Assembly: GCA_914767715.1 (NCBI GenBank)
Contig: OU612067.1
Coordinates: forward strand, 22,728,162-22,792,161
Length of the DNA stretch: 64,000 bases
Source: Membranipora membranacea
Taxonomy: Eukaryota > Bryozoa > Gymnolaemata > Cheilostomatida > Membraniporidae
Direction of reading: 5' to 3'
In this document: piece after piece, positions 36,901 through 42,900 of the stretch
Layout of the letters: each line of letters opens with the position of its first letter
How positions within the stretch are numbered: position 1 is the stretch's first letter
The notes under the pieces: model-generated
Databases searched by the model: none
Told to the model about the DNA's origin: nothing
Seen by the model: the letters and a program-made list of their open reading frames with translations, nothing else
Position numbers and translations under genes: made by a program

Positions 36901-39900
36901 AGCGTCAGTCATGAGGGATTCTCCGCTCACTATATCACATTCAACCACTCTACTTGTAAGTAATCTTCACCACTTTGGCACATGCTTCCACACTGATCGC
37001 GTGATATACTATTGCATGTGTATCTCGGATCGAAAGAGAGTGAATTAATTCACTTAGTAGTAGTTCCATCCCAAGGAATTTGGTGTGACGACCCGTGTTC
37101 AATTTAATTAATAAGGGATGGGTACATGTTAGTTACTGCTACAAAATAGACTCTAACAATCAGAGTTACAAATGTTAATAGTGTTAATCTCGATTATCAG
37201 CTTCCTATGTTCCACTCCAGCTACATTTCTCTGAAACTTAACTTCAGGCATTTATTATGAAATCGAGTGTTATCTGTTGCAACCTGATGGACACCACTAG
37301 TGCATATGTCGGCTGTTTCTAAGATTACTTTTGAGTAAAGCCTGTACGAACCGGTTTTCAATATTCCATTATAACAGGCTTTGCCCAAAAATACGATCAC
37401 ACCAAATGTTAGCTAGCCTGTGTGTTGGCTCTGATCTGATTGGTAATAATAGCGATCAGATCGAATCAAAAACATTGGCTTCATGTTACCCTCTTTGTTT
37501 GAGCCATGTTAACCTTGGCCTTGGTGTTATTATCTCCCTTTTAGGGTGTGGCGATGAGAGAAGAACCCTACCAGGAGAGATTACATCTCCAAACTTCCCA
37601 GCAGACTATCCCCACCAGAGAGAGTGTATATGGACTATCATTGCTCCAGACAATCATCAGATCGTTCTCAACTTTACAGACTTTGAAATGGAGGCTCATA
37701 GTCAGTGTAACTATGATTTCCTCGAAGTCAGGTAAGGTGGCCTATATTATCTTCAGAACTATTTTAATACTTGCAAATCTCACCCCCCTTGTTGCCAGCA
37801 ATTGCTTAAACTACTGCTGCCACTCATGCAAATTTGTGCTCATTGAATTCTACATAGCTCCAAGATAATTAATTGAGACTTAAATCTCATAATTGTCACC
37901 TAATGGGCAAATAATTTGCACAAACTGATCTTCAAAATCAGGGCATGAAATCTACGCACCAGCTTATGACGTGTACTGAATGCACTAGTAAGATAGTAAC
38001 TACGTCCCCCGTGCCGGACCGTGCCGGTAGATAATTAATTTCATACCCTAATTTTGACGATCAGTTTGTGCAGATTATTTGCTCATTAGGTGACAATGCT
38101 GAGATTGCAGCATCAATTTATTAGTTTTGAGCTATACAGAACTCTATAAGCACACATTTGGCTGTGTGGCAGCAGTGGTTTAAGTATATTGTTATAGTAG
38201 TTGTTTTTGAGCAATGAGGGGACAACTTATAATTATATGATCAGTCTAAGACCATTATTTTTACTACTTATAGAAAAAATACATGCCTGATCATACGTAA
38301 TCATCTTTGCTTAAAATACTTGATTTAGGATGAGATGAATATTTCAATGTCATTTCAAGCAGTCTTCTAGTGAGAAACTCGAATTGTTTGTACTATGTCT
38401 CAATCATTGTTTTGTTGCTTACAGGAATGGAGGTAATGAGTTGTCTCCCCTGATTGGAAAGTTCTGTGGAACAAAAGTGGATTCACCAATCTTCTCTCAC
38501 AGTAACAGAATGTGGATCAAGTTCAAATCAGACGTCTCCAGCGCTGCTCCGGGCTTCAGAGTCTGGTATGAGGATGCTGGTGAAGGTAACTTCAATATGT
38601 TGTCAATTTTTATGATATTTTCCACCTGAATTTTTGAATCATTCCAAACTTGTTCAATATCAAATTGTTTACTATTCCTATGGCTATTATATATTCCACA
38701 TTTCACTAACAGGTTGTGGGGCTGAGCTGTCTGGCCCAACTGGTAGATTCTTGTCACCAAACTACCCTAATGCCTACAACAGAGAAGCAGAGTGTTACTG
38801 GACAATCACAGTGGCTCAAGGAAGCTCTGTCATGCTTGTCTTCCTAGACCTTGACATTGAGAGACACGACTCATGTGCTTACGACTATGTAGAGGTTAGT
38901 GTGTAAGCCAGTTGTTACTGGACTTGCATAATATTTGAGATTCTAAAGACCAATACGACGACTTCAAAGTTGCCATGTTTTTCTTTTGATGGCATCGATC
39001 TTTATTTTGATTGCAAACATACCACAGAAGAGTACTATGAAGAGAGCAATCATTTGAGCTCATGTGGGGTGACTTAATGTAAGCGAGCAACATCTCTTTA
39101 CTAGCGGAGTTAGAAGTATATATAAGCTCATGAGGTTGAGTTGATGTAAGCTGGCTATGTAAGCTGGCTATTTCAAACAGTTGCGAAAAAGTACTTTCTT
39201 TGACACAAATTACCATTTATAGGTCATCGAAGGAATACATACTGGCAGATCTCTGGGTAAAATATGCGGAAACACACCACCCCAACCAGTGAGCACTTCT
39301 GGTAATCAGATGACCGTCAAATTCAGAGCTGATACTTCAATAGGTGGTCGAGGTTTCAGTGCTGCTTTCTTCGCAGGTATGTTATGAGTCCTGCAAAATA
39401 TTACTGCCATCAAATGATGAACTTATGGCAATTGAAGCTCCCATGATTGGAAATAAATGAATGTCAGTTTTTACAAATGTTTGTTTTACAGAGAGTCTTC
39501 ATTATATTGTCAATGACATTGTTGTGCTATTTTTAACACAGAATGCCAGAATCAAGTGTTGAATGCCAGTTCAGGTGTTATCGAGAGCCCTAACTTCCCT
39601 GACCCCTACCCACATAATCGTAACTGTTCATGGGTTATCAATGCTGGGCTCGGTAATATAATTTCACTGGCATTCAGTCACTTTGATATTGAGGATGATA
39701 TAGTTGGCAACCAATGTCGCAACGATTATTTGGAGGTTTGTAATGGTTAAATAGAAAAACCCATGTCTGTCCGCTCTGCTTAGGTAATACTTACCACTAA
39801 CCCCTTTCTACTGGATTATTGCTTCGAGTCATGCTTGTCCCATTTGGCAGTTTTTTGTTGTTGGTGGATCATTCTTATTGGTAAGGCGAGTTCTATTGCA

Positions 39901-42900
39901 AGATATTTCAAACAAACTTGGACAAGAGATAGTCATACTTCTGAATTCAGGCGGAGAATCAATCATTGAATGGCAATATGAGCAACTCAAGTGTCTAAAA
40001 CTTACATCCTATTAACCTTCACCTTACCTTGAAATCAAACAATATTCTGTACTATCTGTTACTTACATTCTGCTCATAAATGTTACTAACTTGCCTGCAG
40101 AGTGCCAGAACCAGAACTTGACAGCGCACCAGGGTGTAATAGAGAGTCCTAACTTCCCTAACCCTTACCCACATTCTCGTAACTGCTCCTGGCTCATCTC
40201 AACCTCCACCGGTAATACGCTGAGTGTGCGATTCTCTCACTTCGAAATTGAGGATCATTCCAACTGTGTCTTTGACTACCTGGAGGTAGGTGGAGCGGTT
40301 TTAATTGGTGACCACTTCTTTATCATTTAACACCCATGCATGCAACCACTAAAATCGCTATACTCTAATCCTTTGGAATATCCAAAGCTTTTTAGTTAAT
40401 GTGATGGTGCTAAGACTAAGTCTAAGTCTAAGTCTTCATTGCGGAGAGGGTTGCCCCTCTAGAGTGCAGGTTTTGGGACCCATGGTAAGCCGGGCCCTAT
40501 ATCCTTGCCCGCCGGAATTAGAACAAGATCACAAGTCCGCACTCTTAACCATCAGACCACTCCTGACTGATGAGTGCTATTTAATCCTGAGTAACTCAAT
40601 TGGCGGTAGTAGCATACTTTTGACAGTGTATCATTCATAGAACAGCAAATTTGAAGCAACAATGCGATTTTTAGAAAGGCTAACCCTTGCACTTTCCTTT
40701 CTTTATAATACAGATAAGAGATGGACCTAGGTTGACAGATAATCTTGTTGGTCGGTACTGTGGTTCTGATTTACCCCCACATATCAACTCTACTAGCAAT
40801 CAACTCTATGTTACATTCAGATCGGACGCTTCCTTGGCTCAGAATGGCTTCAGGCTTGAGTATCTGACTATGGGTAAGTTTAAGAGTTCTACTGGTTTGC
40901 AATGCTAGGTCGCTATTACTCGAAATGGCCATCATGATGGGACCCTCCTGACTGGTCAGATTATTTGACCTACAGGCATTGGACATGCATTTTCTTGATT
41001 CTTGAACTTTGAAATTATTGATATCCTATGCTAAGCATAATTCTCCAATCACTAGAAGTAGTATCATATTATGAACAAGTAACCAAATATACTATCTCTG
41101 TCAGTGTCTGTATGGGCCCGTACAGACATAATGTATAATACATGTGAGTCTTTCCCAACCACCTGTTTGTTTGCTACTACTAGAAAATCTAGGTGGATCT
41201 AATGATACAAACTCAAGTAATATTGGTAAGATTGTGTGAAAGCTTATCACCGATGTATTTTTAACAAGTCTTAACAAGTCACTATCATTGTTTGTGTAGA
41301 TTCAAATGCCCACTCATGCTAAAAAATCTGTATACATGTGTAAAACTTTTTTGTCTAATAACACCATGTTGCGACAGCCTTGTCAAATCGCCTATCATAA
41401 AAGCTTAACCTATCTGTTCGAATGTCTGCAATATGCATGTTTGGTTACAAAGCAACATCACAATCTTACAGTGGTGTTTTTGTTAAAAGTATCCAAGTTA
41501 ATAAAAGGAAGACCCAAGAAGAAAACCAAAATTCAGTGTCGTCGGTATTAATAAGTGTATGCGTTTGTTAATCCGGTGCAAGGGTTATAAGTATTTCATC
41601 TGTGCTTATGATTTTTCACAGTGTTATTCCTTTGTTTTTCGTATTCCCTAGGTTGTGGTGGAGACTTTAATGCAGAAACAGGACAATTCTCCAGTCCAGG
41701 ATACCCTGGACCTTACCCACACAACAGAGAGTGTATTTGGAGAATCACAGTACCTATTGGAAGACGCATCCAGCTGGATATAAACAATGTGAACCTCGAA
41801 TATCACTCAAATTGTACCTATGACTTTATTGAGGTATAACAAACAGGTTCCGTTTTTGTTTGGAAACACAAATCATAAGCTAGAAAACATTCCTGTTTTG
41901 CAGAGAAAAATGTTTAGAAAGTAATCTCATGATGAGAGCAGAGACACATAATATTTAAAACCCACAACAACGCAAATAACTAGCCATTGAGATGTGATGT
42001 GCTCTTAGTCATCGACCATCTGATCTTTTTTGTTGTGCCCCTCAATCAGCAACAAATCAGTCTGCATTCTCTTTCCTGTAGGTTCTCGGTGGTCCCGATT
42101 CCAACTCCCCACAGCTTACTAAGATATGTCAGGATAGAAACCAGTCGAGCTCAGTCACCTCAACCGGTAACCAGATGTATGTTAGATTTAAGACTGATAG
42201 TTCATCTTCAGGCCTCGGCTTTTCTGCTAACTTCTCATCTGTTGACCAGGGTGAGTATGAGAGTGCAAAGAGGAACAGGCATGAGACTTCATAAACTATA
42301 AAAACATTTATTATAATCCAATTTGCTGAAGTCATGTTGTTTGTACTAAAGCAACATAGCCAACAAATGATTGGCCAAGAACAAATTAATGTATTGAAGA
42401 AAAAACGATTTAAAAATCGATATGACGATGAATGCACTTTAAATTGCACATGAATGTAGTTTAAATCTAAATCATATTGTGAGTTCACAATTAGAAATAT
42501 ATAAATCTACATCATTGTTTGAGTGATTTGTGAGCAAGACCCCCCCCCCCTAGCAGGTTTCAGCAATCAGATAGTCTTTACTGTTTATAATTAAAAGACC
42601 TCCCTGGCTAACAATTGTCTCTGAATCGATTTAGGCTGCGGAGGTGTGTTCACTACTCCTACTGGCAACATACAGTCCCCCGGCTACAATACCGGCTATC
42701 CACACAACACAAACTGTGAGTGGAACATCACCGTGGCAGCGTTCCAGACAGTACAGATCACATTCAAGAACTTTGACCTTGAAGATCATGATGCCTGTAT
42801 CTATGACTATGTAGCTGTAAGTACATAGAGTCATAGTAAATGCAGTTGAATGGTGTAATGGAGAATTGTTATGGACACTCGAATTAAGATTGCAAGTCAA

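Follow-up and report, generated by a model that had tools for sequence, protein, structure and literature searches.

Why should a receptor gene carry two successive exons for the same half of a single domain? The question arises from what appears to be a cubilin gene of the bryozoan Membranipora membranacea, in a stretch of 64,000 nucleotides of chromosome 3 (C3:22728162-22792161; contig OU612067.1), hereafter the window; the genome searched comprises 339,339,785 bases in 18 contigs. Two neighbouring exons, A and B, both encode the first half of the eighth CUB domain (CUB8), and a single exon, C, encodes its second half. We give a probability of roughly two in three to the reading that A and B form a frame-locked, mutually exclusive pair in Membranipora cubilin, whose alternative use would swap half of a ligand-binding domain. 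A first-pass annotation had pointed to this arrangement; its observation is confirmed here, and its interpretation is partly supported.

The exons concerned, in window positions, are the following.

39223..39376, + strand: exon U, second half of CUB7, donor to both alternatives, ending in phase 1.
39542..39735, + strand: exon A, first half of CUB8, long-loop version, 194 bases, AG/GT borders, open frame, phase 1 to 0.
39736..40100, + strand: 365-base intron separating A from B; TACTAAC lies at 40084-40090, shortly upstream of B.
40101..40285, + strand: exon B, first half of CUB8, short-loop version, 185 bases, AG/GT borders, open frame, phase 1 to 0.
40714..40873, + strand: exon C, second half of CUB8, common to A and B, starting in phase 0.

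The coordinates, borders, lengths and phases of A and B agree with those first annotated, and so does the claim that only a strict either/or choice preserves the protein. With either exon alone, CUB7 and C are linked in frame and the model stays open, without a stop (3386 codons with A, 3383 with B). Joining A to B produces a TGA at 40119-40121, and skipping both yields DKRWT followed by a TAG. That both exons encode the first half of a CUB domain is borne out by the Pfam CUB profile, which is matched end to end by A+C at 113.7 bits and by B+C at 121.2 bits (cut-off 21.4). A missing CUB second half between the two exons had been named as one finding that would overturn the proposal, and none was detected within the 365-base intron. 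A and B are thus adjoining homologous exons of equal phases with common neighbours, and the frame is broken by both or neither of them, two properties by which mutually exclusive pairs are recognised.

The sequence of the surrounding gene supports its identification as a cubilin. Our model of it is approximate (an own Viterbi procedure with splice matrices entered by hand) and runs from the EGF-like part to CUB27, short of both gene ends.

24299..61650, + strand: model of the cubilin gene, with 67 exons in either the A or the B form, covering the EGF-like part through CUB27.

An EGF-like cysteine pattern is present from 24299 on, as read from the translation rather than by a library scan. A profile built from the model's own domains finds 27 CUB domain matches in the A form, with the A/B domain as the eighth, in agreement with the count of 27 and the CUB8 position first proposed; CUB14 is shortened, since the model skips a second-half match at 47223-47357. 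Over CUB6-9 (query residues 610-1080), the highest identity among the best 120 of 1349 proteins is with a cubilin-like protein of the bryozoan Watersipora subatra (68%), and Owenia and Mytilus reach 53% each. For both the A and the B form the best solved-structure match is 3kq4, human cubilin CUB5-8. Count, kinship and structure match alike thus uphold the original naming of the gene. When both exons were allowed, the model kept A and B and bridged them by tiny spurious exons, which shows only that each looks coding.

How much does the frame lock tell about splicing? Phase 1 to 0 occurs in 12 of the 17 first-half exons compared, which are part of the gene's first halves, and in 10 of 15 once A and B are set aside. 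A tandem copy of such an exon is therefore frame-locked from birth, and the lock alone is no evidence of evolved exclusive splicing. The evidence for an exclusive pair is instead the conservation of both copies. We estimated nonsynonymous and synonymous divergence (dN, dS) and their ratio (omega) with an own maximum-likelihood codon script, using as reference a second, divergent cubilin gene at C9:21.885-21.918 Mb (L023-L026), whose CUB matches extend over about 32 kb and which has just one CUB8 first half, of the A type. Purifying selection has acted over the path between A and its C9 counterpart and over the branch to B, in both cases with omega near 0.2. Between A and C9, dN is 0.110, dS 0.64 and omega 0.17 (likelihood ratio, LR, 18.5 against omega 1), a value inside the range of 14 other exons of CUB2-CUB10 compared between the same two genes (omega 0.06-0.44, dS 0.47-0.96). 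A fit on three rows (A, C9 and B) gives omega 0.21 for the branch to B and rejects neutrality there (2 delta lnL 14.7). The dN/dS check that the first-pass annotation had proposed thus finds both exons constrained. A compared directly with B gives dN 0.317, dS 1.88 and omega 0.17 (LR 18.0), and the A-B distance (dS 1.9) exceeds that between the C3 and C9 genes (dS 0.5-1.0). B against C9 returned no finite dS, which indicates that saturation is near.

The two versions differ unevenly along their length. A and B are 66% identical (41/62), and five successive segments match at 8/12, 17/19, 10/20, 2/10 and 4/4. The fourth is the acidic loop, three residues longer in A, where the versions had been said to differ most; it does have the lowest identity, but the difference extends to other segments. 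The longer, A-type loop is also found in CUB8 of Watersipora (ENDVFGSACRNDFLE) and of the C9 cubilin gene (EDDTNSSSCRNEFLE), and protein P0019 is A-type as well. A B-like short loop occurs in CUB8 of molluscs, Owenia, amphioxus and hemichordates, most of them with GNT where A has GNI. On the sequences compared, the long-looped A is the version typical of bryozoans, and the short loop of B is what other animals usually have. Identities run from 52/65 for A and C9 and 49/65 for A and Watersipora to 37/62 for B and Watersipora and 39/61 for B and Owenia. The vertebrate proteins compared, one sequence per cluster, have one CUB8 first half each. Other open reading frames compared carry longer loops of their own, and one cubilin-like protein, P0210, resembles B in its LTAHSG and GNT but has a long loop whose end, CRNDYVE, resembles A; it is possibly an intermediate between the two types. 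Together these indicate that loop length changed more than once.

The branching pattern of CUB8 first halves bears on the age of the pair. A tree built on 49 rows (63 columns) unites the four A-type rows to the exclusion of B (support 100/99). A smaller tree retained 27 of the 49 rows, without P0001, P0014, P0016, P0023, P0025, P0029, P0032, P0034, P0036, P0039 and P0042 and without Argopecten, Saccostrea, Acanthaster, Apostichopus, Diadema, Glandiceps, Lampetra, Alligator, Ambystoma, Clavelina and Canis. Here B is sister to the A-type clade (81/79), and a clade of A and B is disfavoured by the approximately unbiased test (p-AU 0.028). The A/B split is thus probably older than the split from Watersipora.

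Further copies of these exons lie downstream on the same chromosome. CUB exons recur on C3 at about 22.757-23.605 Mb, in at least about ten partial, mostly broken copies of the same orientation, arranged head to tail behind the intact window gene and occupying 0.85 Mb. We sampled this array in 14 stretches, each 10 kb long. L022 is that of the window itself; the other 13 were compared with 29 window exons (CUB1-CUB13), and the absence of an exon there may simply reflect the end of a stretch. Exon A is present in six of the 13 (L009, L011, L014, L015, L017, L019) and exon B in four (L011, L015, L017, L019), in the A-B order of the window; both are missing in five (L012, L013, L016, L018, L020), and two (L010, L021) stop short of the place. 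The recurrence of the pair in four other units favours the exclusive-pair reading, and, judged from these sequences, the pair predates the array. Identity among the copies is about 96-100% around this place. Every compared stretch except L010, which holds two CUB13 exons only, has stops, frameshifts or splice sites that are lost, and the array copies were accordingly dropped as a test of selection. Among the matches listed, the second half of CUB5 has close counterparts only in the window (90%) and in the C9 gene (84%); with the other copies broken, the window copy thus looks like the working gene of the array. In two copies, near C3:22.850 and 23.105 Mb, A stands beside C without B. Two stretches 255 kb apart, L009 (C3:22.846 Mb) and L014 (C3:23.101 Mb), agree in their stops, in a 1-base insertion within A and in lacking B, and these common defects indicate that one was copied from the other after breakage. 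More cubilin CUB exons, from about CUB13 onward, lie at C9:22.559-22.574 Mb (L027-L028), near but distinct from the other C9 gene. In the viral contigs and the genome contigs, a pattern search for relatives matched 9 and 16 stretches, respectively, none of which encodes one.

What would the choice of exon change in the protein? Either version leaves the domain with the loop Glu and with the Asp residues of DYLE and FRSD; by pattern, these three are putative calcium ligands. The segment between the loop Glu and the first Asp has 10 residues in A and reads DHSNCVF in B, and the predicted N-glycan site shifts from NAS at residue 8 in A to NLT at residue 6 in B. We infer that swapping A for B would alter calcium-dependent binding yet leave the putative calcium ligands in place. 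Intrinsic factor is bound, in the human complex, at the calcium sites of cubilin CUB6 and CUB8, as described in a section of PMC6283879; for vertebrates, at least, the proposal that CUB8 is aptly placed for ligand contact is well founded. A Tyr-Glu-Asp-Asp motif is said in part of PMC10850435 to mark calcium-binding CUB domains. According to PMC9485058, albumin binding by rat cubilin is reportedly lowered by the glycan on N1285, which lies close to the beginning of CUB8, although replacement of N1285 alone gave no albumin binding. As a hypothesis, the choice between A and B could switch the ligand.

The history that we envisage begins with a duplication of the CUB8 first-half exon in an ancestor of the gene, most likely before the C3 and C9 cubilins separated and probably before Membranipora and Watersipora did. 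B would have kept the short loop usual elsewhere, and A would have turned into the bryozoan form, its loop, next to the presumed calcium site, having lengthened. Any one mRNA would run from CUB7 through either A or B to the common second half C; an mRNA with both or neither would shift frame and lead to nonsense-mediated decay or to a receptor cut off in CUB8. We infer that both exons are spliced into mRNA, and that, with the donor of A so weak, B is probably chosen by default and A is the exon under regulation.

Several results weigh against this reading. In the C9 gene no B was detected, nor a decayed B in its A-C intron. Of the related species in which the first-pass annotation suggested looking for the pair, Watersipora was covered through its annotated protein, the only sequence of its cluster, and this shows the A type alone. 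B groups weakly with molluscs (81/73), not with the bryozoan rows, in the 49-row tree, and the 27-row set does not reject a grouping of A, B and C9 (p-AU 0.083), so that B may instead be later and fast-evolving. The selection test of B spans its whole branch and does not imply that B stood beside A throughout; the branch of A has a length near zero in the three-row fit, which places a recent loss of constraint on A outside its reach. Two array units, L015 (C3:23191091) and L017 (C3:23335793), have a B that matches the window's exactly or almost exactly, whereas their A has a stop (L015) and replacements (L015, L017), both units being broken elsewhere too. Finally, a coarse test of whole-intron duplexes in this single species found no intron-intron pairing beyond shuffles (10, 53 and 46 of 60 shuffles reach the observed energy).

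Some of these results feed the main rival explanation, an unlikely one in our judgement, by which a single exon is used and its partner, though intact in appearance, is a duplicate that was retired or never came into use. The working exon might be B, with A, its donor weakened, now being passed over; or it might be A, in line with the Watersipora annotation, in which case B would be a relic or a fragment that recombination among the cubilin copies introduced recently. The A donor (GAG/GTTTGT) is indeed the fifth weakest of the 57 model exons scored, the B donor (GAG/GTAGGT) ranking 42 from the weakest, and the A-type exon of the C9 gene, beside which no B was found, has a strong donor (GAG/GTAGGT). 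A donor weak in the window gene and strong in C9 fits B as default with A regulated, or A on its way out. That Watersipora and the C9 gene show A alone, that the array displays recombination and decay in this region, and that the selection estimates give no date for A and B becoming neighbours all favour a single working exon. On the other side, A and B are both open, have kept the CUB pattern and usable splice sites at omega near 0.2, and no separate B-type gene was seen in the genome among the best 150 candidates scored. Far less probable is that the pair mainly yields unproductive mRNA, with A+B or skipping lowering the receptor level by decay and the A/B difference being minor: both wrong choices do stop early, but the versions diverge in the loop, where binding is expected, and yet both are constrained, and a poison exon does not need a CUB fold. 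An assembly artefact, with alleles or array copies joined in tandem or a CUB second half lost, is more improbable still. A near-identical repeat array is the easiest place for misassembly; against this, A and B are too divergent at 66% identity to be alleles, a possibility that we rejected also for their recurrence in array units, the same order is found in L011, L015, L017 and L019, and exclusive use gives exactly 27 CUB domains.

If A and B are indeed mutually exclusive, by which route? An intron too short to be spliced was rejected on inspection, the A-B intron having 365 bases with TACTAAC close to B, and so was a U2/U12 mismatch, the sites being ordinary and without a U12-type donor. Regulators and the removal of wrong mRNAs are among the ways to exclusive exon choice given in part of PMC3585155, and with spacing, U12 sites and intron pairing all unsupported, these two are left.

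The kind of system, alternative halves of one binding domain, is already known from FGFR2, and in the open-licence papers searched no cubilin or CUB case of alternative half-domain exons was found. As proposed for the bryozoan gene, exons IIIb and IIIc of FGFR2 are two mutually exclusive versions of half an extracellular receptor binding domain, and their choice changes ligand specificity (PMC4566030, in the section consulted). In FGFR2, however, the second half of an Ig-like domain is exchanged, with tissue-specific use and ligand change proven, whereas in bryozoan cubilin, known here from the gene sequence alone, it is the first half of a CUB domain in an endocytic receptor. Human cubilin CUB8 (CUB5-8, PDB 3KQ4) corresponds by position and also starts without the usual CGG, but no alternative first half is described in those parts of the literature on it that were consulted. 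Dscam-type clusters are likewise tandem homologous exons of an extracellular domain, one of which is chosen (PMC3585155, in part); the bryozoan gene differs in having two exons only and no intron pairing beyond shuffles.

More doubtfully, an old and a new CUB8 ligand face might have been kept together since before the Membranipora-Watersipora split, with a spliced choice giving one receptor gene two ligand sets, for example in different zooids or colony tissues. The use of A and B can be checked with public RNA reads, such as the M. membranacea poly-A RNA-seq run ERR6464929 (described in part of PMC10290214). If both exons are used, the bryozoan may make two receptor forms, and the locus would offer a natural two-state experiment on a domain whose calcium site binds intrinsic factor in vertebrates, with the old and new exon versions kept together and datable by sequence.

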